Assembly: GCA_017940185.1 (NCBI GenBank)
Contig: JAGAZE010000007.1
Location: forward strand, 1 to 48,787
Direction of reading: 5' to 3'
From: Bacteroidaceae bacterium
GTDB lineage: Bacteria > Bacteroidota > Bacteroidia > Bacteroidales > Bacteroidaceae
DNA length: 48,787 bases
Shown here: positions 1 to 48,646 of the stretch, piece by piece
How the letters are laid out: each line of letters begins with the position of its first letter
How positions within the stretch are numbered: the first letter of the stretch is position 1
Translations under genes and position numbers: made by a program
The notes under the pieces: model-generated
What the model saw: only the letters and a program-made list of their open reading frames with translations
The model's database searches: none
Told to the model about the DNA's origin: nothing

Positions 1-503
1 ATAGTTGCAATTCTTAGCGCAAATGGCCTCGTCTACACACGTTGTCGTGCCTGCTTTGAGCATATTCATTACCACTCTGAAAAGTTTTTTGCAAAAATGC
101 CTACACGCTTGCACTCGCGGGTGTATCGCGCTGGCACACAACGCGATAGTGCGTGTAAGTGATTTTTGGCGCTTACACGCGCTTACACGCGTCTGCATCT
201 GCTTGCATCATCACAACTTTCTGGTAGACAGCGCGAAATAACGATGGTGGCTGTGGTGTAAGCGATTTTTGCCGCTTACACCCTGCTTGCACCCTCGCAG
301 CATTCTGATATATGGTGCGAGACTGACAATGGGTGGTTTAGTGTGTGTAAGCGGCAAAAATTGCCTGCACTCGCAACGTGCTGACCACCAGCGCGAAACA
401 GATGGTGTGTGTAAGCGCGTGTAAGCGGCAAAAATCGCTTACACGCTCGCAACGCTCTGACAGACAGTGCGTAGCACGCGATGAGTGTAAGCAAATAGAA
501 AAA
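1..503. repeat. Hairpin satellite, copy 1 (left end)
   Basis: No gene is supported in the first 579 bases. The stretch is an irregular tandem array of about five units of roughly 65-105 bp. A typical unit has a palindrome (left arm GTGTAAGCG, A/T-rich loop of about 8 nt, right arm CGCTTACAC), then GCTTGCAC, then a spacer close to CTCGCAACGCTCTGA followed by ACACAG and GCG. Clear perfect hairpins lie at 255-282 and 419-444; degenerate ones lie near 151-180 and 342-370. The last unit is a half unit, GTGTAAGCAAAT, at 485-496. A leader containing GTCTACACAC at 32-41 precedes the array. The same leader, units and terminal half unit recur in the same orientation at 48258-48646. Short ORFs across it are products of the repeats. 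Confidence 0.85.
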
Positions 504-579
504 GTGGATTGGCGTAGGGAACAATGAACCTAAATCGGTAAACAGCTGCACAAGATATCAAACTTGTGGTGGCGCCGGC

Positions 580-1218
580 CTATCGTCTTGCCTTGCGCTT
601 GTAGACGCCGAGTTCTATTCTGTATTTTCCCACGACGTCGGCTCTGTCGATGTTGGACTCATCGGCTTGTTTCACCTTCTGTGGGTAGAATATATACACC
701 TGCTTGAAGTAGGCGTCGGGACGTCGTCGGGTAGACACACCGCCATATACCTTGTCGGTCGTCATGGGCAGCCCTGCCTTGCGCAGGTCGGCGGCAGCCT
801 TGTTGTAGAAGGCTACGGCCTCGGCTTGTGTGTCGAAGTAGAAGGTGTACCAGTGGCGGTTGTCTATCCAGTCGACATAGCAGAGGTCGATGGGTGCGCC
901 GAGATAGGTGTAGTCGTAGCGGTCGTTGCGATGGAGCCCGACTGACAGGATGTTGACGGCCTCCCACGAGCCGAAGGCCTGTTGCAGTGCTTCTTTTGCA
1001 CTTTCGGCATCGCAGACGTCTGCCGACAGTGTGGCATAGGGGAAGAAGAGGATGTCTTTGGCTGTTCGCTCTTTGATGTCGAGTGGTGTGGGTGCGGTGG
1101 GTGCCTTGATGCTGGTGCGGGTGCTTTGGCCTCTGCCTGCGCGGCTTTGAGCATCGGCGGTGGTGGGGGCGAGCCACAGCATGGTGGCTGCCAGCACGGA
1201 GAAGATGATGGATTTCAT
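580..1218 (-). CDS. Exported protein of unknown function
   Basis: A 212-residue protein that I do not recognise. The first 23 residues form a standard signal peptide (Lys3, a hydrophobic stretch, cleavage near ADA-QS), so the product is probably periplasmic or outer-membrane associated. The mature part begins with a basic Arg/Ser/Thr-rich linker, followed by a compact region with several aromatic residues around residues 95-135 (YDYTYLGAP, WIDNRHWYTFYF) and a Lys/Arg-rich C-terminus. No catalytic motif is visible. It starts 52 bp after the stop of the TonB_C-GDPD gene on the same strand, so the two may be co-transcribed. It is the last gene before the left-end satellite. Confidence 0.75.
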   Translation of the reverse strand: MKSIIFSVLAATMLWLAPTTADAQSRAGRGQSTRTSIKAPTAPTPLDIKERTAKDILFFPYATLSADVCDAESAKEALQQAFGSWEAVNILSVGLHRNDRYDYTYLGAPIDLCYVDWIDNRHWYTFYFDTQAEAVAFYNKAAADLRKAGLPMTTDKVYGGVSTRRRPDAYFKQVYIFYPQKVKQADESNIDRADVVGKYRIELGVYKRKARR

Positions 1219-1270
1219 GGGGGCTCAGTTATTGGTTAACGTGGTTATAGGGTCTGTTTGTCCTGTGCGC

Positions 1271-2356
1271 CTATCTGGCGAGTTGCATGGCTTCTACGGG
1301 TCGGTTGGTGGTGATGTAGTCTACTTCTTTGTTGATGAAGTAGCGCAGGTCGTTGTCGTCGTTCACTGTCCACACGTTGACGGTGAGCCGTAGTTGCCGC
1401 GCCTCATCAATCCATTCCGGGTGTTTGCGCAGCACGCTCTGTTCGTAGTCGATGCCGTCAAGTCCCATGTCGGCGACTTGCTGTGGTGTGAGGTCTCCGC
1501 CGAGGTATGCCACCTTAGCTTCCTGCACGATGCGCGCGGGCAGCATTTGGCATATATTCTTAGAGAACGAGATATAGTCGGTACGCTCTTCGAGCCGGTA
1601 TTTCTTCACCAGTCGCAGCACTTCGTCAACGCAGCGTTGCTCGTTGTCGGCACTGCGGTGGGGTTTTATCTCGAGGATGAGGCGTGTGTTGTTCTTCAGT
1701 TTTTGGGCGTGTTTGAGGTATTGCTCTAGGGTGGGCAGCGGTTCTCCGTTGAGCAGTCGCAGCTTTCGCAGCTGTTGGTAGGTTGTGTCTTCTATTCTGA
1801 GTCCGAAGATTGTGGCGTCGTGGTTGACCACTGCCACTCCGTCGGCGGTGATTTGCACGTCGAACTCCGAGCCGTACACTCCGGCTTCGTCGGCTTTGGT
1901 GAGTGCTGCAATGGAGTTTTGTGCGCTGCCCGGTGCGTCCCATAGTCCGCGGTGGGCGATAATCTTATTGGGAATTCTGAATGTTACGGGTTGCTGAAAT
2001 TGCACTCGCACAGGTTTTCCTTCTTTTGTTCCGGGAATCCATCGCGGTATGTATCCAATGATGCGCAGTGCCTCTGCGTCAAGCAACGGGTGTGCGGAGC
2101 GCAGCACTTCGGTGTGCTGCACCGTTCCGTCGGCCTCTACGATGAGGTTGACGATGACGCGTCCCTCGATGTAGTGTTGCTGGCAGTAGGGCGGATACTG
2201 CATGTGTCGGCTGATGAATGCTGTGAGTGCGCTGATGCCTCCGGGATATTGTGGCAAGATTACTCCGTCGGCATTGGGCATGTTTTGCGCCTTTGTGGGC
2301 AGTGCGAGCGTCAGGAGCAGTGCGATGAGGATGGAAAAGGAGCGGAAAGGGTTCAT
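1271..2356 (-). CDS. TonB C-terminal domain fused to glycerophosphodiester phosphodiesterase
   Basis: A two-domain exported protein of 361 residues. The ATG at 2356 is preferred over the upstream ATG at 2416 because it gives a clean signal peptide (MNPFRSFSILIALLLTLALP). Roughly residues 30-125 match the TonB C-terminal fold (PQYPGG, YIEGRVIVNLIVEADGTV, PRWIPGTKEGKPV). From about residue 130 to the end it is a GDPD domain: IAHRG carries the first catalytic His, EFDVQITADGVAVVNHD the Glu/Asp metal ligands and second His, followed by LEIKPH and a terminal ITTNRP. GDPD enzymes hydrolyse glycerophosphodiesters to glycerol-3-phosphate and an alcohol. The reading frame is continuous, so the fusion appears real. 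A near-perfect promoter lies at 2457-2487. Substrate and the role of the TonB-like part are unknown. Confidence 0.88.
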   Translation of the reverse strand: MNPFRSFSILIALLLTLALPTKAQNMPNADGVILPQYPGGISALTAFISRHMQYPPYCQQHYIEGRVIVNLIVEADGTVQHTEVLRSAHPLLDAEALRIIGYIPRWIPGTKEGKPVRVQFQQPVTFRIPNKIIAHRGLWDAPGSAQNSIAALTKADEAGVYGSEFDVQITADGVAVVNHDATIFGLRIEDTTYQQLRKLRLLNGEPLPTLEQYLKHAQKLKNNTRLILEIKPHRSADNEQRCVDEVLRLVKKYRLEERTDYISFSKNICQMLPARIVQEAKVAYLGGDLTPQQVADMGLDGIDYEQSVLRKHPEWIDEARQLRLTVNVWTVNDDNDLRYFINKEVDYITTNRPVEAMQLAR

Positions 2357-2456
2357 AGTGTCGGGAGTTGGGGGCTGTGTGTTGGGAGCACAATAGCATT
2401 GCGCAGCAATGGACAAAGGAGGAAATGCTGCCGTGTTGTAGGCAGTTCGGTTGTTG

Positions 2457-2487
2457 CAAATATACTATAATTCTGCGATAAAGCAAA
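2457..2487 (-). promoter_or_regulatory. Bacteroidota-type promoter for the TonB_C-GDPD gene
   Basis: On the minus strand a TTTG (2484-2487) is followed after exactly 19 bases by TATATTTG (2457-2464), matching the TTTG / TAnnTTTG elements of the Bacteroidota primary sigma factor. It lies about 100 bp upstream of the chosen start codon. Confidence 0.7.
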
Positions 2488-2517
2488 ATGTAGGTGTAAT
2501 TATGGTTGTCAGGTTGT

Positions 2518-3480
2518 TTAGTTTTTTTGTTGTTTTGCTGCCTGTATGTTTCGCATGAGTCCATGGTATTTAGCTCTTTTCACGGCGCTGCCTTTGAAGA
2601 GTGTGCGGTAGGTGTCTTCGTCGAGTTGTTCCCATTTTTCGTCAGTCATGTTGAGCAGCGATGGTGACGGTTGAAGTTCTTCGATGTGTGTGGGAGTGGC
2701 GAATTGGTTCCACGGGCATGCTTGCTGGCATTGGTCGCATCCGTAGATGTTGTTTCCCATGTGTTGTTGAGCGTGCGAAGAGAGTTGGTTGCGGTTTTCT
2801 ATGAGTTGGTAGGACAGGCATTGTTCGGCCAGGAAGACGTTGTGTGCGAGTGCTTTTGTTGGGCATGCGTCGATGCATCGGCGGCATGTTCCGCAGCGGT
2901 CAGGAATGGGATGGTCGTAGTCCAGGTCGATATTAAGTAGCAGTTCTCCGAGGAAGCACATGGTGCCTCCTCCTTGCTGTTGTCCGTCGGGGTTGGTCGT
3001 CGGTGGAATGATGAGCTGATGGTTTTTGCCTATCCATCCTATTCCTGCCTGTTGTGCCCAGTAGCGTTCGAGAATGGGTGCGGTGTCGCAGCATACGCGC
3101 CCTTGCGCTGTGGGCTCTTGCTGTTGTATGAATGCCAGCAGGCTGTAGAGCCGTTGGCGCATGATGTCGTGATAGTCTTTGCCGTATGCGTAGGCTGCTA
3201 TCTGGTAAGTGTTGTCAGGCAGTCGTTGTGCCGGTGTGTAGTTGAGTGCGAGGCTGACTACGGTTTTTGCTTGTGGTAGCAGCCGTCGCGGGTCGAGACG
3301 CAGTTCGGTGTAGTTTTCCATGTATTGCATGGATGCCTGTCCGTGTTGCTCGAGCCATTGGGTGAGTTTCAGCTGTGCTTGTTGGCTGACGGGTTGTGCT
3401 TTCGCCATGCCGCAGGCAAAAAATCCGAGACGTTGTGCCTCGGATTTTATCATTTGTGTGAGCTTGTGTGTGTCGGGCAT
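2518..3480 (-). CDS. queG: Epoxyqueuosine reductase QueG
   Basis: The cobalamin- and Fe-S-dependent enzyme that reduces epoxyqueuosine to queuosine at the wobble base of GUN-anticodon tRNAs, the last step of queuosine synthesis. At 320 residues it is on the short side of the usual length. Visible signatures are CDTAPILER (with the conserved catalytic Asp), the following GWIGKN, and two [4Fe-4S] clusters: CGTCRRCIDACP with a later Cys (QCLSYQLIEN), and GCDQCQQACPWN. It starts 7 bp after the deacetylase stop, so it is probably the third gene of an operon with the DUF2723 protein and deacetylase. That link looks positional rather than functional. Confidence 0.96.
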   Translation of the reverse strand: MPDTHKLTQMIKSEAQRLGFFACGMAKAQPVSQQAQLKLTQWLEQHGQASMQYMENYTELRLDPRRLLPQAKTVVSLALNYTPAQRLPDNTYQIAAYAYGKDYHDIMRQRLYSLLAFIQQQEPTAQGRVCCDTAPILERYWAQQAGIGWIGKNHQLIIPPTTNPDGQQQGGGTMCFLGELLLNIDLDYDHPIPDRCGTCRRCIDACPTKALAHNVFLAEQCLSYQLIENRNQLSSHAQQHMGNNIYGCDQCQQACPWNQFATPTHIEELQPSPSLLNMTDEKWEQLDEDTYRTLFKGSAVKRAKYHGLMRNIQAAKQQKN

Positions 3481-3487
3481 GGTCAGC

Positions 3488-4099
3488 TCAGGTAAAAATT
3501 TTGCACTCGTAACCTTCGTCCTTGAGCCATTGCAGGCATTGCGGCAGTGCGGTGCGCAGCTTGTCGATGCTCTTCAGCGAGTCGTGGAATGTGATGATGG
3601 ATCCGTTGCGTGTGTAGCGTTTGACGTTGTTGACCACGTCTTCTGCCGTTACCCATTGTGAGTAGTCGCGTGTGATGACGTCCCACATGATTACTTTGAA
3701 TCGGTGTCGGAGCCACCAGTATTCGGATGGTCGCATGAGTCCGTGTGGCGGGCGGAAGAGGTCGGCGCGTATCAGTTCGTTGGCGCGGTGGGTGTCCATG
3801 GCATAGGTGATGGTCCAGTGTTTGAGCGCTCCCATGTGTGTGTGGGTGTGATTGCCTATCTGGTGACCTTCTTCTACGATGCGCTGATAGAGTTGTGGAT
3901 GTCGTTCGACGTTTTGTCCCACCATGAAGAATGTGGCTTTCACACCATATTGTGCGAGCGTGTCGAGTATGAATGGCGTGGCTTCGGGTATGGGTCCGTC
4001 GTCGAATGTGAGATAGACGGCCTTTTCGTGCTTATCCATTCTCCACACAGCTCTGGGGTAAATCCATCTCACCCAGAAGGAGGGATGCTCAATGAACAT
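3488..4099 (-). CDS. Polysaccharide deacetylase (NodB homology, CE4)
   Basis: A 203-residue protein that is almost entirely a NodB domain. The family removes N- or O-acetyl groups from chitooligosaccharides, peptidoglycan or exopolysaccharide with a divalent metal. Seen in order: TFDDGP (catalytic base and metal Asp), HTHTH (metal His pair), RPPHG (motif 3), a Trp-Asp pair (MWDV) and ITFHDS (motif 5 His). No signal peptide is evident; the N-terminus (WVRWIYPRAVWR) may sit at the membrane. It lies 21 bp downstream of DUF2723 and 7 bp upstream of queG. A cell-wall or surface-glycan substrate is likely; which one cannot be told. Confidence 0.93.
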   Translation of the reverse strand: MFIEHPSFWVRWIYPRAVWRMDKHEKAVYLTFDDGPIPEATPFILDTLAQYGVKATFFMVGQNVERHPQLYQRIVEEGHQIGNHTHTHMGALKHWTITYAMDTHRANELIRADLFRPPHGLMRPSEYWWLRHRFKVIMWDVITRDYSQWVTAEDVVNNVKRYTRNGSIITFHDSLKSIDKLRTALPQCLQWLKDEGYECKIFT

Positions 4100-4120
4100 T
4101 GCTGGTGTTGTTGAGAGTTG

Positions 4121-7100
4121 TTACTGTGCGCTGAACGCGGGTCCTCCTTTCTGTTGGTATTGTTGTTCGATGTTGAGCAGTTTTTTATCGAGCTGCTTTG
4201 CCCATGCCATGTCGTATTGCGCAACGATTCTCTCGATGTTCCCCATGATGAACAGTTGTCGTTGGCTGTCGCTGATGGAGTTTTGGAACTTTCTGGGCGG
4301 CAGCTGCGTATACCAGTGCATGTACTGTTCAGCCTTATGCCACAGTGCTTCTGCCCACTGTCGCATCATCTTCTTGTTGCCGAGTTCTCCGTATGCGGTG
4401 ATGATTTCGAGTGTGCTTCCGAAGATGTCGACGGGGACGTTGTAGGTGGGCAGTTCCGTTTCCATCTTGTCGAGCACTTTGCGTGCCTGTTGCTTTTTGT
4501 TTTCGGCTATGAGGTTGAGGGCGAGTTTGGCGAAGAGCGATCGATGCGTGTAGCACAGTCTGAGCACCGTCTCGTCGAGGTAGATACCTTTTTCTTTCAC
4601 GTTGCCGTAGCGGAATCGGTTCATCACTGCGTCGTAGGTCTTCTCGGTGTCGAAGTTTTTGGCGTTGTCGGCTGTGGTGTTGTAGGGCGAAATGCGGTTG
4701 GCGAGACCTTCCTGTATGAAGTAGTCGTTGAATGAGCGGAGGTAGTTTTCTTCTCCTACTGTCTGTGCCATGTAGACGGGTCTTGTCCAGTTGCTTCCGG
4801 CCAGAATCATGAGTGTCATGAGTTGCCCCTTGGTGATGTATCGTTGTCCGGCAAGGCTGATTACCATCTTGTCGGGCAGGGAGTCGTTGGCATTCATCAC
4901 ACCGCTTTTTCTTACGGCTTCCTTGTCGATGGGGATGTAGAGTGTGTCGGTGGGGATGACGCGCAGCCTTGGATCGTCGCCGCAAATCCAGTATTTCACC
5001 ACGTTGTTGACTTCGAAGGGGTTGTTTCCCCAGCGTTGTTTAGCCATTGCGGGGTCAGTCTGGTACAGGTCGCGTATTTCCTGCTTGAGTTCCGGGTGCA
5101 CATCGATGGTGTTGTTGGTTCCCTCGCAGTAGAAGAGCCTTGGCAGGTTGATGGGCAGCGCCGGTGAGTTGTATGCCGGGCGTCTCATCTGGTCGATATA
5201 CCAGTCGGTCTGTATGTAGCTGAGGTTGCACACTCGTGCGTCGGTGCGCTGGCCTTCTGTTTCTTGGTTGTACCAGAGCGGGAAGGTGTCGTTGTCGCCG
5301 TTGGTGAAGATGATGGGATTGCCTTGGTCTTGCATTGACATGAGGTAGTTGCGTCCGAAGTCGCGGCAGGTGTATCGTGCGCTGCGGTCGTGGTCGTCCC
5401 ATGTCTGCGTGGCCATCTGTATGGGCACGAGCAGAGCGAGTAGGGTGACGTTGGCTGCTATGGTTGCGAAGCGAGGATGGGCAATGCTTTCGTCGTCGGG
5501 ATTGAAGAATCGCTGTTCGTCGGTAGCATTTTTCTTTTTCTCGTTGCCGGCAGCTTTTTTCTTCAGGAATTGTGTGCGTATCATCTCTATGATGGCGAGA
5601 ACTCCGAGTCCGCACCAGATGGCGAAGGCATAGAAGGAGCCGGCATAGGCGTAGTCGCGTTCGCGCGGCTGCAGCGGTGTCTGGTTGAGGTAGACGACGA
5701 TGGCGAGTCCTGTCATGAAGAAGAGGAAGAACACTACCCAGAACTGTCTGATTCCTCTCCGTCCGCGGAATGCCTGCCATGTGAGGCCTATGATGCCGAG
5801 CAGCAGCGGCAGACAGTAGAACACGTTATGTCCCTTGTTGGCCTTCAGGTCGTCGGGCAGCTGGCTTTGGTCGCCCAGGCGTGCGTTGTCGATGAAGGGT
5901 ATGCCCGAGAGCCAGTTGCCATGCTCGTATTCGCCATGCCCTTGTATGTCGTTTTGCCGTCCGGCAAAGTTCCAAAGGAAGTAGCGCCAGTACATGAAGT
6001 TGCACTGATAGGAGATGAAGAACTTGAGGTTTTCGACAAATGTGGGCATCTTCACCATGCCTCCGGGCTGGTAGTTGGATGGGTGCAGCGAGCCTTCGAC
6101 ACCTCCTACCCAGTGTCCGTCTTCCGTCTGTTGTCCGCCAAACCATTGTTCGTAGGCTGCTTCGTGCTGCTGCGAGTACATGCGCGGGAAGAACATATTC
6201 TGCGCATACTTCGGTTTGTCGTTGGTGGCTACTATGAAGTAGCTGTCGGGCTCGTTGGGCGAGGCCTTTTCTTTGCGTTGATAGATGGGTGCTCCGGTGC
6301 TCATCTCCACGCCTTGTCCGTCGGGGTTGAGCTTGTATTCCGATGTGTAGGCCTGTCCGTAGAGCAGCGGGCGATAGCCGTACTGGTCGCGGCTGAGATA
6401 GCTGCCCAGTGTGAAGATGTCTTCGGGCGAGTTCTGGTCCATCGGTGTGTTGGCGCTCGAGCGTATCACGATGACGGCATACGAGGAGTAGCCTATCATG
6501 ATCATGAGCAAGCAGAGCAGTATGGTGTTTTTCAGTCGTGCGGTGACGAGCAGCTGCTTGTTTTTCTTTCGTACGAATACCACGTAGGTCAGCGCAGCGA
6601 TGGCGATGAGTCCTATCACCACTGCTGTGAGCCCATAGCCGTAGAAGGGAATGCCGAGCAGTGCTACAGCGAGCACGAAGGCGATGTTCTGTCGTGAGAT
6701 GTTGCCTTGCTCACGCATGGTTTCCCATATGGCCCACACCACCACGCCGACGAGCAGGATGATGTAGACGATGAGTCCGGTGTTGAACGGCATACCCATG
6801 GTGTTGACAAAAAGCAGTTCGAACCATCCTCCTACAGTGATGATGCCCGGCACGATGCCGTAGAGCACGGCGAAGATGACGGCGAAGGAGACGAGCAGTG
6901 CGAGCAGTGAGCCTTTTGCAGTGCTGTTGGGCCAGCGGCGGTAGTAGAACACCAGCACGATGGCGGGCACGCAGAGCAGGTTGAGCAGGTGAACGCCGAT
7001 GCTGAGTCCGACGAGGTAGGCTATGAGCACAAGCCAGCGGTCGCTATGGGGCTCGTCGGCATGCTCTTCCCATTTCAGAATGAGCCAGAACACCACGGCG

Positions 7101-7564: not shown

Positions 7565-7605
7565 GTGCTATGATGTTGTAAATCTACTACTAATAATAAG
7601 CGGTG

Positions 7606-7636
7606 CAAAGATAGCACAAGGCGAGCGTAGCACAAA
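7606..7636 (-). promoter_or_regulatory. Promoter of the DUF2723 operon
   Basis: Minus strand: TTTG at 7633-7636, 19 bases, then TATCTTTG at 7606-7613, 42 bp upstream of the DUF2723 start codon. Element sequence and spacing both match the Bacteroidota housekeeping consensus. Confidence 0.75.
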
Positions 7637-7705
7637 ACGAACGAGTTCATTTTTACGTTTTCAGCCTTTTGCATCTGCGGGTACGCTTGTCCTATTATGA
7701 TACGC

Positions 7706-7738
7706 CACCGCCCTGCATCTCCTTGATGCAGGGCGGTG
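7706..7738 (-). terminator. Strong hairpin terminator
   Basis: A perfect 14-bp stem (CACCGCCCTGCATC at 7706-7719 pairing with 7725-7738) and a 5-nt loop. It lies just downstream of the stop of the 7763-8746 gene and upstream of the DUF2723 promoter. There is no long T run on the minus strand. Confidence 0.7.
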
Positions 7739-7762
7739 CGTGATATGTGTGTGGCTTTTTGC

Positions 7763-8746: not shown

Positions 8747-8772
8747 AACAAATAGGTTTTGGATTTTATCCG

Positions 8773-8803
8773 CAAATGTAGACATTTTTTTACACTATCC
8801 AAA
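8773..8803 (-). promoter_or_regulatory. Promoter overlapping the end of the upstream gene
   Basis: Minus strand: TTTG at 8800-8803, 19 bases, TACATTTG at 8773-8780, ending 26 bp upstream of the start at 8746. The -33 element lies inside the last codons of the 8790-9776 gene, so the downstream gene can be expressed independently. Confidence 0.7.
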
Positions 8804-9776: not shown

Positions 9777-9847
9777 TGTTGTAAAGTTGTTAAGTTAATA
9801 AGTATTGATGTGAACATAGTTGTGAAGTTTCCTGTCTGTGTGTACAG

Positions 9848-10246: not shown

Positions 10247-10467
10247 AGCCTTTTGTAGTTTGTTTGCTGCAAAGGTGCTATGATAGCAGATATAATTCCA
10301 AATTATTTTGTTCGCAAAAAGTTCGCAAATTACAAATGTCACAGTTCCAGAGGTTTACGAAGGCGATTCTTAAGGTATTCCTTTAGCTGCAAGCGAAAGA
10401 AGCATGCTGTGGATGGCTGAAAAGACAATTTCTACCATCTGTGGAATCACGCTTCAAGACAAAATGC

Positions 10468-10475
10468 TACCTTTG
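10468..10475 (+). promoter_or_regulatory. Probable -7 element of the TPR-HTH regulator gene
   Basis: TACCTTTG, matching TAnnTTTG, 52 bp upstream of the regulator start. No good TTTG is seen at the -33 position, so the promoter may need an activator. The 281-bp divergent gap (10247-10527) otherwise shows no recognisable element. Confidence 0.5.
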
Positions 10476-10527
10476 CGGTAATGATAATCCAAATGTAAGT
10501 TTTTAATAAGCCCCGAAAAAAGGACGA

Positions 10528-19762: not shown

Positions 19763-19835
19763 GGTGCCTTAGCTCAGTTGGTAGAGCATCGGACTGAAAA
19801 TCCGTGTGTCCCCGGTTCGATTCCTGGAGGTACCA
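19763..19835 (+). tRNA. tRNA-Phe (GAA)
   Basis: 73 nt forming a cloverleaf. The acceptor stem GGTGCCT pairs with AGGTACC (one G-U), the D arm is GCTC/GAGC, the anticodon loop CTGAAAA carries GAA, and the T loop is TTCGATT. The discriminator is A and CCA is not encoded (ACCCC follows). Two stem mismatches are visible: T-T at 27:43 and C-T in the middle of the T stem. Its own promoter lies upstream and a hairpin terminator downstream. Confidence 0.95.
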
Positions 19836-41100: not shown

Positions 41101-41572
41101 TGTACTTGTTGTCGTAGGTGATGTAGGGATGCTCCATGTCTACCCAGTAGCCGATCTTCTCAGTGAGTTCCTGCCATTCGGCGGTGTATTTCATCACGTT
41201 CTCGCGGCACTTGCGGTTGTAGTCTTCTATCGATATGGTGGTACCGATGTCCACTTTTGTGATACCTAGTTCTTTCTCCACGCTCAGTTCCACCGGCAGT
41301 CCGTGTGTGTCCCATCCGGCCTTGCGGCTGACGTGGTAGCCTTGCATGGTCTTGTATCGGTTGAAGGCATCCTTTATGGTTCGTGCCAGCACGTGGTGTA
41401 TGCCAGGGTGTCCGTTGGCGGAGGGTGGTCCTTCGTAGAAGACAAACTCCGGGCAGCCCTCGCGCAGGCGCAGCGAGCGGTGGAAGATGTCGTCACGCAA
41501 CCAGCGTTGCAGCACGTCGTTATTGGTCTGTGTGAGGTTCAGACCCTTGTATTCGGGAAATGGGTAACTCAT
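38123..41572 (-). CDS. ileS: Isoleucyl-tRNA synthetase
   Basis: 1149 residues from the ATG at 41572 (MSYPFPEYKGLNL); the frame extends 35 codons upstream into the promoter. Class I motifs are GHPGIHH (HIGH-type) and NKMSKRLGN (KMSKS-type). AGWDTHGLPVELSVEKELG and SHELNLPGCYRDVKDTTATVQF (start of the editing domain) are clear. The length and long C-terminal region place it with the eukaryote-like IleRS type (IleS2), which in other bacteria is linked to mupirocin insensitivity; that is inference here. It heads the operon with the TraR/DksA-like gene and lspA; -7 element at 41624-41631. Confidence 0.97.
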   Translation of the reverse strand: MSYPFPEYKGLNLTQTNNDVLQRWLRDDIFHRSLRLREGCPEFVFYEGPPSANGHPGIHHVLARTIKDAFNRYKTMQGYHVSRKAGWDTHGLPVELSVEKELGITKVDIGTTISIEDYNRKCRENVMKYTAEWQELTEKIGYWVDMEHPYITYDNKYIETLWWLLRQLYDKGLLYKGYTIQPYSPAAGTGLSSHELNLPGCYRDVKDTTATVQFRINEADRPQLAQMLNISDDTLPVFFLAWTTTPWTLAANSALCVGEKYNYVAVQTFNPYTAEREVVLLAEDRLNAYFDEKGCTDDIAAATYQRGDKVLPWQQLGTCTGKQLLGMGYRQLMPMIRPMSEGAFRVISGDYVTTDDGTGIVHIAPNFGADDALVAKKAGVPPIVLIDKKGATRPVVDLEGKYYRTEDLDPAFVSQYVDSELWNRYAGRYVKNAYDDTLTDKDETLDISICLDLRNENKAFRIEKHTHNYPHCWRTDKPVLYYPLDSWFIRSTAKKERMMELNHNINWKPAATGTGRFGKWLENLNDWNLSRSRFWGTPLPIWRDEDGNTKCIGSLEELYNEIEQAVAAGVMTANPLKEKGFVPGNYSDDNYKRIDMHRPYVDDIILVGPTGKPMKRETDLIDVWFDSGAMPYAQIHYPFENREAVDNQKAFPCDFISEGVDQTRGWFFTLHAIATMLFDNVAYRNVISTGLVLDAHGNKMSKRLGNSVDPFEAIEKYGTDALRFYILTNSQPWDNLKFDPQGVEEVRRKFFGTLYNTYSFFALYANVDHFDPNADAIPLAERPEIDRWILSELHSLTKKVAESLDDYEPTRAGRLIDAFVSDDLSNWYVRLNRKRFWGKEMSHDKLSAYQTLYTCLTTVAQLLAPFAPFYADQLYNDLTQGKEKSENISSVHLTHFPKADETHIDTELEQRMKIAQKITSMTLALRRKVNIKVRQPLQKIMIPAVDEQQRRLIEAVSNIILSEVNVKQLQFAEGSSLLVKKVKCNFRTMGKKFGKLMKAVAASVDALSQEQIALLEKQGTLPLTADGQNVNIELADVEIINEDIPGWLVANEGNLTVALEVNLTDELRREGMARELINRIQNLRKDNGLEITDRINVSITPHDEVEAALHDFNEYIRTQVLADNITLTDNDGTCIDMDTFNIYIKIEKV

Positions 41573-41623
41573 GTTTTTTCTTTTTTTTTCAGTCGGATAA
41601 ACTCCCGTGGCGTATATAGGCTG

Positions 41624-41631
41624 CAAAGTTA
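41624..41631 (-). promoter_or_regulatory. -7 element of ileS operon
   Basis: Minus-strand TAACTTTG, 51 bp upstream of the ileS start. A TTTG lies upstream on the same strand (41644-41647) but at a spacing of only 12. No T-box-like leader is seen. Confidence 0.55.
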
Positions 41632-41693
41632 AAAAACATCGCCCAAACAGCGTGAAATGTTGCACGATTATTTTCACAATCCAATCATCTTCG

Positions 41694-41701
41694 TACCTTT
41701 G
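41694..41701 (+). promoter_or_regulatory. -7 element of the DUF4465 lipoprotein gene
   Basis: TACCTTTG, 48 bp upstream of the start at 41750, with a TTTT/TTTC stretch at 41670-41675 in the -33 area. Divergent from the ileS promoter. Confidence 0.6.
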
Positions 41702-41749
41702 CCGTTGTTAAGAAAGGCTTTACATAATCACAAATAATAATTTACGGCA

Positions 41750-42550
41750 ATGAAAAAAATCAACTATTGGCTGATGGCAGTTGCCTTGCTGGCAGCTCCC
41801 GCAGTGCTGACATCGTGCAGTAACGATGATGACAAAGACAAAACCCCGACCTACACCGCCACATTGGACAACCTGGTGACCAATGAAAACGGCTACTGGA
41901 TTGGTGGTGTTGACGGACCTGGCACCGACATGGGCTATGGCACGAAAAGCTGGTATCACACCTACACAGACGGTCCGCTGGCATTCAACCTCACCTATTC
42001 GGAAAGTACTACTGAATGGGAAGGTCAGACCTATACATCTTCCTACTGGAGCGGCTTTGCTCTCTCCTCACGCACCGAGACAGGCTTCAATAGCCTCACC
42101 CCCGACCAATACAACAACGTGACGGGTAAGGCTCACAGCGGCAACAACTTCATCGTGGCCACACTCTATGGTGAGAATATAGAGGTGTTGTTGGAAGAAG
42201 GCCTCGTGATAGAAAGCCTCTACTATACCAACTCCAGCTACACCGTCAACTCCATCGTCAACGGCGATAACTACAGCGGCGGTCCCTTCACTAATGAAGA
42301 CTGGCTCACCTGCACCTTCGTGGGACATCACGCAGATGGCACGAAGACATCTGTCGAGGTCGACCTGGCCAGCAACGGCAAGTATGTGAAAGAGTGGAAG
42401 AAGGTGAACCTTCGTCCGCTGGGCAAGATTGTAGCCCTCGACTTTGTGATGACGGGTTCACGTACAGGCGAATATGGACTCAATACACCGGCTTATATCT
42501 GCCTCGATGACATCAAGGTGCAGATGCCTTACGATGAAATACTGAAATAA
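41750..42550 (+). CDS. DUF4465 lipoprotein
   Basis: 266 residues. The signal ends in VLTSC (Cys23) followed by SNDDDKDK; an acidic residue after the lipid Cys is often linked to surface exposure in Bacteroidota. The DUF4465 domain covers nearly all the rest: YWSGFALSSRTE, the paired-strand stretch VIESLYYTNSSYTVNSIVNG, EDWLTCTFVGHHADGTKTSVEVDL, WKKVNLRPLGKIVALDFVMTGS and GLNTPAYICLDDIKV. The fold is probably a carbohydrate-binding-like beta-sandwich; ligand unknown. It is monocistronic, closed by the terminator at 42594-42621. Confidence 0.93.
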   Translation: MKKINYWLMAVALLAAPAVLTSCSNDDDKDKTPTYTATLDNLVTNENGYWIGGVDGPGTDMGYGTKSWYHTYTDGPLAFNLTYSESTTEWEGQTYTSSYWSGFALSSRTETGFNSLTPDQYNNVTGKAHSGNNFIVATLYGENIEVLLEEGLVIESLYYTNSSYTVNSIVNGDNYSGGPFTNEDWLTCTFVGHHADGTKTSVEVDLASNGKYVKEWKKVNLRPLGKIVALDFVMTGSRTGEYGLNTPAYICLDDIKVQMPYDEILK

Positions 42551-42593
42551 TCGCCACGTTTGCCTGGCAACGTTTGCCAGAAAGCAACACAAT

Positions 42594-42621
42594 AGCGGGT
42601 CGGCTTCACAGCCGGCCCGCT
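42594..42621 (+). terminator. Terminator after the DUF4465 gene
   Basis: AGCGGGTCGGC (42594-42604) pairs with GCCGGCCCGCT (42611-42621) with one T-G pair and a 6-nt loop. The rest of the gap to 42741 holds no gene. Confidence 0.75.
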
Positions 42622-42740
42622 TGCTTACTATACAAAAACATTATGAATTATTCTTTCGCTGCCACCAGTGGCATAATTGCAAGGCAAAGGTAGGGAGGTA
42701 TGTGCAGTGGTGCAATACCTAAAAGCAGGTATTTGCATTC

Positions 42741-45002
42741 CTACCATCTGAAGAGTGCCGCTCCCACTGTCTCCGCATTGCCATCGAATTGTAGGGCATA
42801 GATGCCTCGTGGCAGCTGTGCGAGGCTGATGCGATGCTCGCGCTGTTGCGCCGGCAGGGTGATGGTCAGACACTTCACTCCCTGAGTGGTGTAGATGGTG
42901 AGTGTGGTGGGTTGTGTGGGCGTGTGTGGGAGGATGATGTGGAGGGTGGCATCGGGTGTGATGCTTATTTGCGCCCTGGTGGGATTGACTGGTAGCGAGG
43001 GGATGGCTGTGGACGACAACAGATAGAGCAGACCGGCGTAGGCATCAATCTGTCCGTAGCCGTATTGTTGGTTGGGGTACGACAGTACGGGGTCGTTGTG
43101 TTGCGATGTGTGTGCGATGATGTCGAGCACGTCTGCGGGAGAGAGCGTAGGACACGCCTGCAGCCAGAGTGCCACGACGCCTGCTGCTGCCGGGCATGCC
43201 ATCGATGTGCCGCTGTTGCGATTCCAGGCGTAGGTGCGTCCGCCGTAGTCGAAATGCTCCACGTCTTCAAGCACATCGCGTGCCTCGGGGTGCGCCTCAA
43301 TGTAGTAGCTGCTATATGCCGAGATGACATTGCTGCCCGGTGCCGTCACGTCGGGTTTGAGCCGTCCGTCGAAGGTGGGCCCCACCGATGAGTAGTAGCT
43401 GCGCAGCCCGCCGGTGGCATAGTCGGTCTCGCCCCATTCCCCTTTGTAGTTGTATGCACCTTTGCGATAGCCCGTAGCTCCCACACTGATAACGCTCGGT
43501 GCCGAGGCGGGCGAGTTGATGCAATGCGTCGCCTCGCCGTCGTTGAGGCTTGGGTTGATGGGGTGGGGAGAGATGTATCCCGCTTGCTTGAACAGTTCTA
43601 CATCGGCATTGCTGCCTGTGAGCTCCACCGACAGCGGCTGTGTCACTCCGATGGCGTTGCTGTCGCATCCGATGACGACCTCGTAGCACATCTCCTCGCT
43701 GTTGTAGCAGGAGGGGAAGGCTGCAATAGCAATGGTGTGTTGCCTGTTGGCAGTGTGCACGGTGTCGGTCAGTGTCGAGTCAGACTTTGCGAGCACCTCC
43801 CTGGTGTGCACTTGCCATAGCGTGCGCGGACTCTCGGTGGTGGTGGCATCGTGGTAGAAGGTGATGTCGATGCCGAAGGGGTCGCGGCTCTTGGCAGTGA
43901 ACATCACGCGTTGGCCGTGTGCAAAGAGGAAATTGCCCGCGCGCTGTTGCCCGTGGGGCTTGTGTATATAGGTGGGCAGCAGTGCATCGTTGCCTGCCGC
44001 CGCCACGATGATGCGTCCCGGACCGGTGAGGCTGTCGAGTACCTCGTAGAAGAGCACATCGTCGCCGCGGAAGTCTTGCGCCGACCCTTCGCTGAACGAT
44101 ATCACACAAGGCTTGCCTACCGACTGCGCATAGTCGAACATATACTTAAATCCCAGCGCGTCGGTGGCGTAGGTGAACTTATAAATCTGTGTGCTGTCTA
44201 CCAGTCCGATGTTGTTCGACACTGCATTGGCCACCACGCACAGGTCGGCGTCGGGTGCCATGCCTCTGTAGGGCGAGGTGTATCCGCTTCCTGCTGCTGT
44301 GGCAAGCGTGTGTGTGCCATGCGACAGCATGCTGCCGTCGGTGGAATGCGCCTGCGCCAGTATTTCCTCGCTTGTGGTCCAGTCGCGGCCCACGTAGAGG
44401 GAGCTTGCCAGCGTGTCGGCCGACAGCTGGTCCCAGAATCGATGTATGCGGTAGCGCTGCATGTCGGCAGCATAGAAGGTGGGATGTGTGAGGTCGAAGC
44501 CTACGTCCATCACGCCCACCACCACGCCCTGTCCTGTGTAGGGCTGTGGCAGGCTGTAGCCCTGCCATGCCGGCAGCGTGCGCAGGTAGACGGCGCACGA
44601 ATCGTTGCAGAGGCTGTGGCTCTGCTTCGCCTCGATGCGCAGCACCTGCGGCTCGCAACTCAATGCTGCAAGCCGGCTCAGGGGGATGTCGGCAATGTGT
44701 ATGTTGCCCCAGTGTGCCAGACTCCGCATGCCGTGTCGTGCCATCACGGCCTCGGCATCGCCCTCTAAGCGTACAAAGGCGCACAGCGAGGCGGAAGAGG
44801 GTAGGGCAGCGGCAACATCGGAAGCCTCTCTCCTCGCCCCTTTGCCTTCCATTCTCCCCTCTTCCCCCTTTACTATCTGCCGCACCCATGCCGACATCTT
44901 GCCATAGTGCGGCTGTTGTGCGACTCCTTCTGTGGGCAGCAAGAAGAGCAGCAGCGGCAACAGCAACAACAAACGAAGGCGGAGGGAAAACTGACGAATC
45001 AT
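42741..45002 (-). CDS. Subtilisin-like serine protease (S8) with T9SS sorting domain
   Basis: 753 residues, signal peptide at 1-28. The S8 catalytic triad is visible: Asp166 in GVMDVGFDLTHP, His228 in SHGTHTLATAAG and Ser near residue 600 in NSGTSMACPAAAG. The oxyanion Asn is in AAAGNDA. The last 80 or so residues form a beta-sandwich tail (TLTIYTTQGVKCLTITLPAQ, HRISLAQLPRGIYALQFDGN) of the type A T9SS C-terminal signal, so it is likely secreted through the type IX system and attached to the cell surface. Transcribed alone with a weak promoter. Substrate probably host or dietary protein (inference). Confidence 0.94.
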   Translation of the reverse strand: MIRQFSLRLRLLLLLPLLLFLLPTEGVAQQPHYGKMSAWVRQIVKGEEGRMEGKGARREASDVAAALPSSASLCAFVRLEGDAEAVMARHGMRSLAHWGNIHIADIPLSRLAALSCEPQVLRIEAKQSHSLCNDSCAVYLRTLPAWQGYSLPQPYTGQGVVVGVMDVGFDLTHPTFYAADMQRYRIHRFWDQLSADTLASSLYVGRDWTTSEEILAQAHSTDGSMLSHGTHTLATAAGSGYTSPYRGMAPDADLCVVANAVSNNIGLVDSTQIYKFTYATDALGFKYMFDYAQSVGKPCVISFSEGSAQDFRGDDVLFYEVLDSLTGPGRIIVAAAGNDALLPTYIHKPHGQQRAGNFLFAHGQRVMFTAKSRDPFGIDITFYHDATTTESPRTLWQVHTREVLAKSDSTLTDTVHTANRQHTIAIAAFPSCYNSEEMCYEVVIGCDSNAIGVTQPLSVELTGSNADVELFKQAGYISPHPINPSLNDGEATHCINSPASAPSVISVGATGYRKGAYNYKGEWGETDYATGGLRSYYSSVGPTFDGRLKPDVTAPGSNVISAYSSYYIEAHPEARDVLEDVEHFDYGGRTYAWNRNSGTSMACPAAAGVVALWLQACPTLSPADVLDIIAHTSQHNDPVLSYPNQQYGYGQIDAYAGLLYLLSSTAIPSLPVNPTRAQISITPDATLHIILPHTPTQPTTLTIYTTQGVKCLTITLPAQQREHRISLAQLPRGIYALQFDGNAETVGAALFRW

Positions 45003-45093
45003 GGTGATATATATTATAAGGGTGAGAGAGGTGTTGAAGAGTGCAAAGAAAAGAAAAAATCGGGAAAGGACGTTGCGTTTTGCTGAAAACCTT

Positions 45094-45101
45094 TACTTTT
45101 G
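45094..45101 (+). promoter_or_regulatory. -7 element of the M48 protease gene
   Basis: TACTTTTG, 53 bp upstream of the start, with CGTTGCG at 45071-45077 near the -33 position. Confidence 0.55.
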
Positions 45102-45154
45102 CCCTTCAACAGAGCTGCACACACTGCATATCACTATACAATAATCCATAAGCT

Positions 45155-45964
45155 ATGAAACAAGCAAAAAGTCTTCTTCTCATCTTTGTCGTGGCCTTGC
45201 TTGCCGCCTGCGGCACCACTCGTACCGTGCCCATCACCGGTCGTAAGCAGACTATCTCCGTGAGCGATGCCGACATGTTGAGTCTCAGCTCACAGGAATA
45301 TTCCAAATTCATGGCCAGTGCCAAGGCTTCTACCAACAGCACCAACACTGCCATGGTAAAACGTGTGGGCCAGAAACTCGCCACTGCCGTTGAGAACTAT
45401 CTGCGCCAGAACGGCATGGCCGCCGATCTGGCCAACTACAAGTGGGAGTTCAATCTCGTTGCCGACCAGCAGGTAAATGCCTTCTGCATGCCTGGAGGCA
45501 AAATCGTAGTCTATGAGGGGCTGTTGCCCGTCACTCAGAACGAGGCTTGCCTTGCCGTAGTGCTGGGGCATGAGATAGCCCATGCCGTGGCACGCCACTC
45601 CGCCGAGCAGATAAGCAAGCAGCAGCGCCAGCAGACAGGTCTGCAGATAGGCGCCGCCGTAGCAGGAGCGTTGGGTGTGGGCAGTGCCACCACCAATGTG
45701 GTAGGCTCGCTCATCGCACAAGGCATACAGCTGCGCAACCTGAAGTATTCGCGCGACCATGAGTACGAAGCCGACCACATAGGGCTCATCTTCGCCGCCA
45801 TGGCAGGCTACGACCCGCAGGTGGCTGTCGGATTGTGGCAACGCATGGCCGCACAGGGCGGAGGCAAGTCTGCTGAATTTCTCAGCAGCCATCCTTCCGA
45901 CGCCAACCGCATCAAAGCCATTCAGAAGTGGATGCCCGAGGCGCTGAAGTACTATAAGAAATAG
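45155..45964 (+). CDS. M48 family metalloprotease lipoprotein
   Basis: 269 residues. The lipobox LLAAC puts the lipid on Cys19, so it is a membrane-anchored periplasmic protease resembling E. coli LoiP/BepA without TPRs. The zinc site is GHEIAHAVARHS (HExxH) and the third ligand Glu lies in EYEADHIGLIFAAMAGYDP. A Gly/Ala-rich segment (LQIGAAVAGALGVGSATTN) separates them, as in the family. The C-terminal SHPSDANRIKAI is also typical. The family degrades misfolded envelope proteins. Monocistronic, ending at a bidirectional terminator. Confidence 0.95.
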   Translation: MKQAKSLLLIFVVALLAACGTTRTVPITGRKQTISVSDADMLSLSSQEYSKFMASAKASTNSTNTAMVKRVGQKLATAVENYLRQNGMAADLANYKWEFNLVADQQVNAFCMPGGKIVVYEGLLPVTQNEACLAVVLGHEIAHAVARHSAEQISKQQRQQTGLQIGAAVAGALGVGSATTNVVGSLIAQGIQLRNLKYSRDHEYEADHIGLIFAAMAGYDPQVAVGLWQRMAAQGGGKSAEFLSSHPSDANRIKAIQKWMPEALKYYKK

Positions 45965-45991
45965 TCGGCCGACAAGTAGCCGACATACACA

Positions 45992-46028
45992 CGGCAAGCC
46001 CTGCACCATCATGGTGCAGGGCTTGCCG
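45992..46028. terminator. Bidirectional terminator between M48 and fbp
   Basis: A perfect 16-bp stem (CGGCAAGCCCTGCACC at 45992-46007 with 46013-46028), 5-nt loop, between convergent genes. Confidence 0.78.
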
Positions 46029-46048
46029 GTGTAGAGTGGGGTAGCGGT

Positions 46049-48031
46049 TCAGGGGCGTTTCTCCTTTATCAGTCCGTGGCGGTAGGCGTAGAGCAATGCC
46101 TTGAGGTCGTCCACCTGTTGCTGTATCTCCTTTCCCTGGTCGGTGTCGCCCACGAGCATACGCCTGTTAGCCATCTCCACTATCTGTGTGGTGCTGACGA
46201 TGTCGGTGCCGCGCAATATGGCATCCTTGGTGCTGCTGAACGGCTCGTGCTGCACGAGTTGGAACCCACGGCTGTGGTACACCAGGGTGTAGCCTGCTAT
46301 GCCCGTCTCCTTGTGGTATGCTTGCGAGAAGCCTCCGTCGATGACCATGAGCTTGCCGTTGGCCTTGATGGGGTTTTCTCCCTCGGCGGCGTGCACCGGC
46401 ACATGGCCGTTGATGATGTGGCGGTTGGGTCCCTGCACATTGAAAGCATCGAGGATGGTGTCCACCACCTGCTCGTTGTCGCGCAGTTTGAAGAAGTTGC
46501 CCTTCTCCTCCTTGTGTGTCGACTTGTCGCTGAGGAAGTAGCGTTCGAAGGTTGCCATCTTCGACTTGTCGAACAGGATGGAGTCGGGTCCGCACCACAG
46601 GTAGAGGAAGTAGTCGATAGCAAATTGCCGTTCCTTGTCGGGTGTGTCGTTCTGGAACGCCGAGCGCAGGAGCATGCCGGTATTGTGCATGAGCTGCATG
46701 CCTTTGTAGCGCTTGCCGCCGTAGAGTTCCACCTCCTTCAGCGTGCCGTCGTCGTTGAGCGGCACCGAAGCGTGGAACAGCAGGTTGTTGTTGTAGATGG
46801 CATACATGCATCCGTGGCCGAGCAGCATGCGTATGTGCTTCTGCAGTTTCTCACTGATGCGGAAAGAGTGTGCCAGACGCTGCATGATGTTTTCTTCGGC
46901 GGGTGTGAGCAGCTCGGGTGCTGCGGGGTCGATGGTGGGGAAGTGGCAGCTGCGCATCGCGTAGTCGGTGCCGGCGATGCGGCAGGTGCCGGCGGCATAG
47001 TCCACGTTGCCCAGCAGGCAGCGGTCGGTCATGCCCCATTCGGGATGGCGGCGGATGATTTCGGCTTCCTTCTTGAACTGTATCACCGTGATGGCCTTGT
47101 GCATGAGTGCTATGAGCCGTGTGTTCTGCTCGTCGTTGTGGCTGTCGTTGCCTTGCATGCGCGGCTTGAACTCTTCGCACGGGTCGTCGCCGTAGGTCTC
47201 CAGCGCGAAGGTGGCCAGCGGCATGAGGTTGATGCCGTAGCCCTCCTCCAGCGTGGCGAGGTTGGCATAGCGCAGCGACAGGCGGATGACATTGCATATA
47301 CACGCCTCGTTGCCCGCACAGGCACCCATCCACAGAATGTCGTGGTTGCCCCACTGTATGTCCCAGTTCTTGTATTGCGCCATGGTGTCCATGATGATGT
47401 GCGCACCCGGACCACGGTCGTAGATGTCGCCGAGTATGTGCAGATAGTCGATGGCCAGGCGTTGTATGACGTTGGCGAGCGTGGTGATGAAGTCGTCGGC
47501 GCGCCCCGTGTCGATGATGGTGTCGATGATGCCGCGGAAGTACGCAGCCTTGTTGGGGTCGTCGGTGCGCTCGTGCAGCAGTTCCTGAATGATGTAGGAG
47601 AACTCTGTGGGCAGCGTCTTGCGCACCTTGGAGCGGGTGTACTTGCTCGACACGTCGCGGCACACGCGCACCAGGCGGTTGAGCGCTATGTGATACCAGT
47701 CGTCCATGTCGCCCTCGCTGCTCTTCACCAGTTCCAGCTTCTGCTCCGGATAGTAGATGAGCGTGCACAGTTCGCGCTTCTCCGATTCGCGCAACTCGTT
47801 GCCGAATATCTCGTTGACCTTGCGCTTGATGTTGCCCGATGCATTCTTCAGCACATGCAGGAAGGCTTCGTACTCGCCGTGTATGTCAGCCAGGAAGTGC
47901 TCCGTGCCCTTGGGCAGGTTGAGGATGGCCTGCAGGTTGATTACCTCGGTGCTTGCCTGAGCAATGGTGGGAAAAGAGTGGGCCAGCAGCTGCAGGTAGC
48001 GTAGGTCGGGTATGTTGTTGATTTTCTTCAT
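46049..48031 (-). CDS. fbp: Fructose-1,6-bisphosphatase class III
   Basis: 660 residues from the ATG at 48031 (MKKINNIPDLRYLQLL). It hydrolyses fructose-1,6-bisphosphate in gluconeogenesis; class III is the Firmicutes/Bacteroidota type, with a calcineurin-like metallophosphatase core. Metal-site motifs: FLADIHGEYEAF, LGDIYDRGPGAHIIMD, WGNHDILWMGA, then INGHVPVHAAEGENP and DGGFSQAYHKETG. Length is normal. Transcribed alone; -7 element at 48061-48068, with 22-bp array 3 about 90 bp further upstream. Confidence 0.97.
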   Translation of the reverse strand: MKKINNIPDLRYLQLLAHSFPTIAQASTEVINLQAILNLPKGTEHFLADIHGEYEAFLHVLKNASGNIKRKVNEIFGNELRESEKRELCTLIYYPEQKLELVKSSEGDMDDWYHIALNRLVRVCRDVSSKYTRSKVRKTLPTEFSYIIQELLHERTDDPNKAAYFRGIIDTIIDTGRADDFITTLANVIQRLAIDYLHILGDIYDRGPGAHIIMDTMAQYKNWDIQWGNHDILWMGACAGNEACICNVIRLSLRYANLATLEEGYGINLMPLATFALETYGDDPCEEFKPRMQGNDSHNDEQNTRLIALMHKAITVIQFKKEAEIIRRHPEWGMTDRCLLGNVDYAAGTCRIAGTDYAMRSCHFPTIDPAAPELLTPAEENIMQRLAHSFRISEKLQKHIRMLLGHGCMYAIYNNNLLFHASVPLNDDGTLKEVELYGGKRYKGMQLMHNTGMLLRSAFQNDTPDKERQFAIDYFLYLWCGPDSILFDKSKMATFERYFLSDKSTHKEEKGNFFKLRDNEQVVDTILDAFNVQGPNRHIINGHVPVHAAEGENPIKANGKLMVIDGGFSQAYHKETGIAGYTLVYHSRGFQLVQHEPFSSTKDAILRGTDIVSTTQIVEMANRRMLVGDTDQGKEIQQQVDDLKALLYAYRHGLIKEKRP

Positions 48032-48060
48032 GTTGGTTAATATTCGTATAAATGGCACTG

Positions 48061-48068
48061 CAAAGGTA
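48061..48068 (-). promoter_or_regulatory. -7 element of fbp
   Basis: Minus-strand TACCTTTG, 29 bp upstream of the fbp start. The -33 region has only partial matches (TTGTTCTTG). Confidence 0.6.
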
Positions 48069-48158
48069 ATACAAATATCAACAAGAACAACCCTTGCTGC
48101 CTAAAACTCTGCGGCACCGTTCGCCGACAGTAAGCATACCAGTGCTCGCATTGAGCCT

Positions 48159-48257
48159 CAATCACACTGCAACTATTGCCCAATCACACTGCAACTATTG
48201 TCCAATCACACTGCAATCAGGCAATACTTGCATTCCAATCAGGCAATACTTGCAATT
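48159..48257. repeat. 22-bp tandem repeat array 3 (4.5 units, 11-bp substructure)
   Basis: Two units beginning CAATCACACTG at 48159 and 48181 (second halves CAACTATTGCC/TC), then a half unit of 11 bases (48203-48213), then two units beginning CAATCAGGCAA at 48214 and 48236. The whole is 99 bases, nine 11-mers. The array runs straight into satellite copy 2. The first bases of the window (ATAGTTGCAATTC) resemble its end, suggesting the same array precedes copy 1. Confidence 0.9.
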
Positions 48258-48646
48258 CCGAGAACAAAAGGCCTTGTCTACACACATTGTTGTGAATGCT
48301 TGGATGATACACGCCCACTTCTTGTCATAGTCATCTAAAACTTTTTTTGCAAAAATGCCTGCACGCTTGCACTCGCGCGCATATCGTACTGATACACAGT
48401 GTCATAGAGAGTGTAAGCGATTTTTGTCGCTTACACTCGCTTGCACTCCTTCTCGCCGCCCCATTCTCGAATGGGTGTAAGCAAGGTGTAAGCGAACAAA
48501 ATGCTTGCACCATCGCAATATTCTGATTTACAGCGGAAAAGCAGACGGCGTGTGTAAGCGGTGTAAGCGACAAAAAATCGCTTACACCTCGCAACGCTCT
48601 GATACACAACGTATCGAACGCCGTTGGTGTAAGCAAATCGGAAAAA
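48258..48646. repeat. Hairpin satellite, copy 2 (right end)
   Basis: Same structure and orientation as 1-503. The leader GTCTACACAC is followed by a TTTTTTGCAAAAATGCCTGC stretch (aligned with the same in copy 1). Units with perfect hairpins lie at 48410-48437 and 48561-48587, a degenerate one at 48475-48517. Spacers include TCGCAATATTCTGA (about 48514-48527) and CTCGCAACGCTCTGA (48588-48602). The terminal half unit GTGTAAGCAAAT lies at 48627-48638. Units here are 64-77 bp. No gene is supported. Confidence 0.85.

Follow-up and report, generated by a model that had tools for sequence, protein, structure and literature searches.

What are the two hairpin-rich regions at the ends of contig JAGAZE010000007.1 of a Bacteroidaceae bacterium (assembly GCA_017940185.1), and which system do they belong to? 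The window, by which we mean the whole analyzed stretch of 48,787 nucleotides, is an entire contig (C42) of a draft genome of 2.09 Mb (52 contigs, 89 % complete), referred to here as the host genome. A sequence-only reading had described the regions as two direct copies of a composite hairpin satellite and proposed a chromosome-organizing element, a structured RNA or a substrate for recombination across the 48 kb between them. We find that both are copies of a dispersed element with two inverted arms composed of one short word, that relatives keep this plan with other words, and that arms of this type are linked to genes of VapE-type helicases in related genomes. The most economical account is that the window regions are gene-less, non-autonomous copies of a mobile element with many carriers in the family of the host, and that a VapE initiator helicase binds its words; in our judgment, this reading is about evenly balanced between right and wrong.

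Two inverted arms made of one short word form a dispersed element

Searching the host genome revealed many further copies. BLAST with copy 2 resulted in 102 matches at E≤10, the motif GTGTAAGCG occurs 128 times in contrast to 6 times for the reversed control, and a covariance model of 61 host arms (R1) located at least 42 arms, distributed over 32 places, with the places on C17 and C30 being identical in contig-end sequence. Of 45 stretches taken around host copies, 37 contain arms according to a profile built from 21 seed arms, as does the window.

The element consists of two inverted arms of about 95 bp, and each arm carries one short word in both orientations with fixed spacing. In the host genome, this word is GTGYARGC. 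In the A-type arm, TTTGCCTGCAC-GCTTGCAC is followed by a spacer and then GTGYARGC, behind which come a 9-11 nt loop and two consecutive GCYTRCAC words; the spacer is exactly 38 nt long in 33 of 34 A arms, while its sequence varies. At B-type ends, about 20 nt farther out are also kept. The element ends read TTTGCCTRCAC or GCTTACAC, and the idea that the B-arm spacer is an inverted A-arm spacer was neither favored nor disfavored by a comparison of the two (19.5 in direct and 18.7 in inverted orientation). The 24 two-armed elements span 234 to 709 bp (median 419), and 15 of them contain a 22-bp minisatellite between the arms. According to a crude gene caller, the positions are intergenic with one overlap (L064), and 3' ends prevail among nearby gene ends (12 versus 4 within 100 bp).

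These findings bear out the earlier description of a dispersed element without a known name, in which palindromic words are conserved and spacers drift. Four features had been overlooked: the arm-core-arm layout, the 22-bp repeat as part of the element, the species-dependent word and the connection to VapE genes.

Relatives keep the plan and exchange the word

Using R1, arms were detected in 13 of 99 other genomes of the same genus (14 of 100 including the host). A second model for the family search (R2) detected arms in 28 of 201 family genomes from 10 of 30 genera, host included, with at least 21 arms in each of four other genomes. Among the genomes of the host genus that consist of few contigs, R2 matched 3 of 10, two of which had been matched before. 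The plan is preserved in these relatives with other words, namely GTGTAGGC, GTGTAGGT, GTGGAGGC, GGTGAAAG, GTGAAGGGT, TGTAGGGTT, ATGTAGGCT and more. In a test that presupposes no word, an exact triple of at least 7 nt (reverse complement, word, reverse complement) was present in 20 of 35 arms, which were the best 35 of 44 and, having been found with the host-word model, are partly selected for likeness; neither 1400 first-order shuffles nor 486 random places contained a single one. A scan of all species for exact hairpins yielded 17 stretches with one palindrome each and no array in the six that were inspected.

Arms in relatives are linked to VapE-type genes

In one relative (G040), two inverted arms lie 2.6 kb apart around an open reading frame (ORF) of 694 amino acids, and a palindromic minisatellite follows the ORF. 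The encoded protein has a BT4734-like_N domain, a VapE domain and, below threshold, a match to DUF3874. To compare such loci, we took one VapE locus (the best match) from each of 30 genomes, 28 of which had been chosen for arms: at 15 of the 30 loci, an arm (E≤1e-3) lies no farther than about 0.5 kb from the gene, in contrast to none of 13 Y1_Tnp control loci from 8 word-bearing genomes (Fisher p 0.0013). The arm-linked proteins come in two sizes: short ones have about 400-480 amino acids, and long ones have about 700, including a BT4734-like domain at the N-terminus.

At eight loci (L268, L273, L285, L287-L290 and L292), the gene is flanked by one plus and one minus arm; both arms reach E≤3e-4 at five of them, and L273, L287 and L289 have weaker arms. 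The flanked spans measure 1.5-2.9 kb and contain one VapE gene each. Seven genes adjoin a whole gene-less element at a distance of 2-148 bp, although some of the second arms have E values up to 0.04, and L291 and L297 have one arm each. The longest inverted repeats around the eight flanked genes are 15-44 nt long, compared to a null mean of 9.2 (5 % of the null pairs reach 12, maximum 59). For L268, the G040 locus, the longest repeat lies outside the arms, where an exact inverted repeat of 36 nt was noticed at about 840-875 and 4136-4172, at unequal distances. Seven of the flanked loci were read, and in each of them one gene-specific word stands left and right of the gene; L270 has the word of its genome on both sides. 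In G040, G056, G120, G179 and G205 the word is common to gene-linked and dispersed gene-less copies (in G040 for 2 of 4 checked), and in G112, G246, G290, G169 and G096 the word of the gene locus does not mark the dispersed copies.

Two further candidate associations were dropped. In G056 and G049, some elements lie next to homologous genes, but by a rough estimate they are too few to beat chance. A gene for a 438-amino-acid protein with several helix-turn-helix matches (L136:1722-3038, G004) was found in 1 of 24 genomes and is likely a chance neighbor.

Linkage of a gene to dispersed inverted word pairs is also seen in REPIN elements, which are moved by a RAYT (Y1) transposase (PMC3116915). 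Both systems have dispersed intergenic word doublets in inverted orientation, the same words beside a gene, and a gene and word that diversify together. In contrast to REPIN-RAYT, the linked gene here encodes a VapE helicase and not a Y1 transposase, and each element is longer and has two arms around a core. No Y1_Tnp match was present in the host or in the sister genome G005, and the 13 Y1_Tnp loci of word-bearing genomes are not only devoid of arms, but 11 of them also lack the word of their genome and two have a single 7-mer match. REPIN-like movement is therefore highly improbable in our view.

The Y1_Tnp genes at L159, L161, L162 and L163 have palindromic ends of their own (GGGGTCGGTTCTGGTGATCA in L161), apparently a separate dispersed family.

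The VapE protein resembles replication initiators of SaPI and PICI

A profile search with the VapE protein returned 7pds, titled PriRep1 with dsDNA, as the sole solved relative at E≤0.01. The same entry leads the fold search, followed by NrS-1, African swine fever virus PrimPol, poxvirus D5/E5 and the SaPI5 primase-helicase, and by its secondary structure the C-terminal domain looks winged-helix-like. In SaPI Rep, the C-terminal domain recognizes short origin words, and PICI origins consist of two word sets around an AT-rich region (PMC7581432, PMC6092414). The likeness to these systems (also PDB 7pds, 7ola) thus comprises a VapE/PriRep helicase gene beside short words and two word sets around a core. 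A gene beside a word array was observed in relatives, at the 15 of 30 loci, but not in the host genome, where no VapE gene lies above the cut-off. Unlike in SaPI and PICI, the words here form inverted hairpin arms, which in some cases stand left and right of the gene, and the chromosome carries dispersed copies that have no gene. A PICI island moreover carries an integrase, regulators and packaging genes, whereas the host elements have no gene and the flanked spans only one.

The linkage, the arm plan and the change of word are shown by the data, whereas word binding and DNA copying by the VapE protein and the insertion of the copies are our inference. As a relative of SaPI PriRep1, it would bind its own word in the way SaPI Rep binds iterons. 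The helicase would then load on the arms, which would serve as origin-like ends, and drive the copying of the DNA between matching arms, and the copies would enter intergenic DNA, often right past stop codons. Gene-less copies would ride in trans and could outlast the gene, which in the host genome may have been lost or may lie in the unassembled part. Copying might proceed by template switching or by replication from hairpin ends. The latter is the mode of replication at the inverted terminal repeats of parvoviruses.

The two arms of single elements were also compared with each other. The outer arms are near-identical (0.78-0.97) in 4 of 23 two-armed elements, with the remaining 19 at 0.23-0.51; L094 is absent from this test, its right arm being outside the alignment. 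The inner parts of the arms resemble each other more in one element than in different elements (p 1e-4), and for homogenization of whole arms, the outer spacer gave no overall signal (p 0.75). The two flanks of L090 continue the inverted identity for about 38 bp past the element. The near-identical arms may reflect copying of one arm onto the other, for example by template switching.

The word rather than RNA pairing looks conserved

The arms had been described as being kept palindromic, which is roughly the case, but many pairs are unmatched at the two variable letters of the word: in 73 short hairpins (at least one a duplicate from overlapping contig ends), one variable site is matched in 42 and unmatched in 31, the other in 56 and 17. 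Neighboring words in the host genome resemble each other, pairable or not, and oriented hairpins show neither an excess of G-T over A-C (14 versus 16) nor a strand asymmetry. Loose pairing, word likeness regardless of pairing and the balance of G-T and A-C together indicate that it is the word itself, and not RNA pairing, that looks conserved.

Across species, the helix formed by the word co-varies, with 55 double-change cells compared to 16.7 in shuffles, none of 500 reaching 55. This covariation would also arise from a single word maintained for a single protein in each genome and is therefore no proof of pairing. Covariation is low in the inner spacer helices, with 68.8 % and 70.5 % of the cells paired, and the arms share a conserved core near TAAC..CTGATTATCAG..GTTA. 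The sequence-only reading would have been refuted by a genome with only two copies and no covariation of the arms, or if the copies had turned out to be remnants of one known IS or integrated element. Neither was the case, and we observe many copies in the genome and words that co-vary across species.

A structured RNA or a terminator array acting in transcripts would fit the strong hairpins and their frequent position near 3' gene ends. Yet in the window Rfam reported just one tRNA at the gathering threshold (gene at 19763-19835), and neither the G-T counts nor the inner spacer helices speak for selection on RNA. The proposed structured RNA thus found no support, and we consider this explanation very doubtful.

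Copies were gained or lost since the split from a sister genome

Contig C35 of G005 is collinear with host contig C49, with 78.6 % nucleotide identity over the matches. An orthologue of the L102 element, built from the same word, is present in G005, while the L101 site is occupied in the host and empty in G005, and the host stretch there holds other extra sequence as well. Overall, G005 has 3 strong arms on two contigs compared to at least 42 arms in the host genome. Elements have accordingly been gained or lost since both genomes split, and at L101 we favor gain over loss.

One alternative is that the words are regulatory or chromosome-organizing sites of a host protein with species-changing specificity and that the VapE linkage is secondary. 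The words that are kept while spacers drift, the orthologous element with the same word and the position mostly by 3' gene ends agree with such sites. The copy numbers of the two sister genomes, however, are far apart, and arms stand beside VapE genes in half of the tested loci, which makes this alternative rather improbable.

A classical miniature inverted-repeat transposable element (MITE), with inverted arms moved by a DDE transposase and VapE genes as cargo or favored neighbors, would account for the inverted arms of the 24 two-armed elements, the intergenic dispersal and the empty orthologous site. BrickBuilt of Porphyromonas gingivalis, which is filed as a MITE (PMC4596501), comes close: it belongs to the same bacterial order, is intergenic and dispersed, and has a leader and tail with inverted ends around a 23-nt minisatellite. 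It differs by IS5-type ends (GAGACC...), 19 copies and a non-repetitive leader and tail, and neither word-switching relatives nor a VapE link is reported in the available text of its source. Between the arms that were read, no transposase gene was met, Y1_Tnp being the sole transposase family searched for; the flanked spans hold a VapE gene instead, and arrays of one word are unnecessary for transposases. We therefore regard a MITE as unlikely. PINSR of Prevotella intermedia (PMC4755523) is likewise an intergenic, lineage-specific repeat (about 180 copies) of unknown source; at 188 bp and reported without terminal inverted repeats, it is set apart from the present element by description.

Several observations weigh against movement by a VapE protein. 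Homologs of VapE/BT4734 type were found in 36 of 40 genomes searched, 32 of them picked for arms and 8 for their absence, and 7 of the latter 8 still have VapE matches. None were found in G000, G005, G085 and G077: the VapE profile gave nothing above the cut-off in the host, G005 and G085, all of which bear arms, and G077 stayed below it, too. No trace of a VapE ORF was present in the 45 host stretches and the window (nothing below E 0.03). As no VapE gene lies above the cut-off in the host, its copies are gene-less. The linkage test draws on genomes that were mostly chosen for arms, and the loci L293, L295 and L298, from genomes without arms, have none. Of the 9 homolog matches in G040, just 2, including a fragment, are no farther than 1 kb from an R2 arm. 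At 11 of 17 gene loci, the word assumed for the genome is absent or rare, hence gene-linked and dispersed families often differ. Likeness of the words did not correlate with that of the C-terminal domain in 15 loci (rho 0.115, p 0.13), nor with that of the helicase core. In contrast to a SaPI/PICI origin, the core of the 24 host elements is not AT-rich (GC 0.515 versus 0.539 in the window). Finally, no consistent target-site duplication was apparent by eye in the flanks, which may count against a MITE as well; the single empty site differs by more than the element.

Anatomy of the two window regions

The likeness of both end regions was confirmed: each has the leader, a series of GTGTAAGC palindromes, CTCGCAACGCTCTGA as spacer and GTGTAAGCAAAT as its end (Table 1). 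All 17 occurrences of GTGTAAGC in the window lie inside the two regions (1.38 expected, maximum 4 in 100 shuffles), and the alignment of copy 2 with copy 1 consists of two main stretches with 74 % and 77 % identity. The spacer described as conserved occurs in both regions, but the motif alone, at 3 mismatches, is found 8 times versus 5.8 expected, a number reached by 24 of 100 shuffles. In the window copies, the minisatellite does not lie between the arms; copy 2 has it outside, to the left of the leader.

Table 1. Features of the two element copies in the window.
Feature	Positions	Strand	Basis
Leader, copy 1 (GGCCT 25-29, GTCTACACAC 31-40)	25..40	+	leader common to the leader-class copies read
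Left (A-type) arm, copy 1: word, spacer, inverted word, T-rich loop, words	98..191	+	R1 match, 84.8 bits
Internal arm-like unit, copy 1	200..295	+	R1 match, 52.4 bits
Short hairpin GTGTAAGCG-loop-CGCTTACAC, copy 1	256..281	.	hairpin reading
Short hairpin GTGTAAGCG-loop-CGCTTACAC, copy 1	419..444	.	hairpin reading
Right (B-type) arm, copy 1, end GTGTAAGCAAAT at 485-496	406..501	-	R1 match, 73.1 bits; end consensus
22-bp minisatellite (CAATCAGGCAATACTTGCA type), left of copy 2 leader	48176..48256	+	sequence reading
Leader, copy 2, identical to copy 1 leader, from about 48268	48268..48287	+	
Left (A-type) arm, copy 2	48356..48449	+	R1 match, 95.3 bits; also R2 match
Short hairpin, copy 2	48411..48436	.	
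Internal arm-like unit, copy 2	48472..48540	-	R1 match, 37.3 bits
Short hairpin, copy 2	48561..48587	.	
Right (B-type) arm, copy 2, end GTGTAAGCAAAT at 48627-48638	48549..48643	-	R1 match, 67.3 bits

The copies at both ends of the window are real, but they are just two of many in the genome, and the window ends are contig breaks. Because many copies lie at contig ends and the window is a whole contig, the 48-kb interval has no special meaning and reflects assembly breaks; recombination across it is not needed.

Other repeats were noticed around the host copies. L066:7-115, at a contig start, contains the word 11 times in tandem in 10-bp steps. A further dispersed repeat with a common GACTCTGCCGAGCGTGAGCAG adjoins elements in L066, L079 and L101. 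A stretch containing TTCTCGGATGAACC, which may be the end of an insertion sequence, recurs in L061, L074, L080 and L089 next to elements or where contigs end, and L079, L093, L098 and L103 share an intergenic stretch with CACGAAGGAGGACGATGCT.

A possible class of mobile DNA and its meaning

Taken further, these results hint at a class of mobile DNA without transposase or integrase, in which a single self-loading VapE/PriRep primase-helicase would read fast-changing words in hairpin arms, copy the DNA between the arms and leave swarms of intergenic satellites without a gene throughout the family. We put this forward tentatively and hold it to be less probable than its opposite; a literature search found no report of such a system.

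The Pfam names of the VapE/BT4734-type genes state no function, and many of these genes now gain a DNA partner in the form of arms with a gene-specific word. If the proposed system is real, it would explain a set of anonymous intergenic repeats, would represent a replicative counterpart to REPIN-RAYT, and would make the recognition of a fast-changing DNA word by an initiator helicase directly testable.

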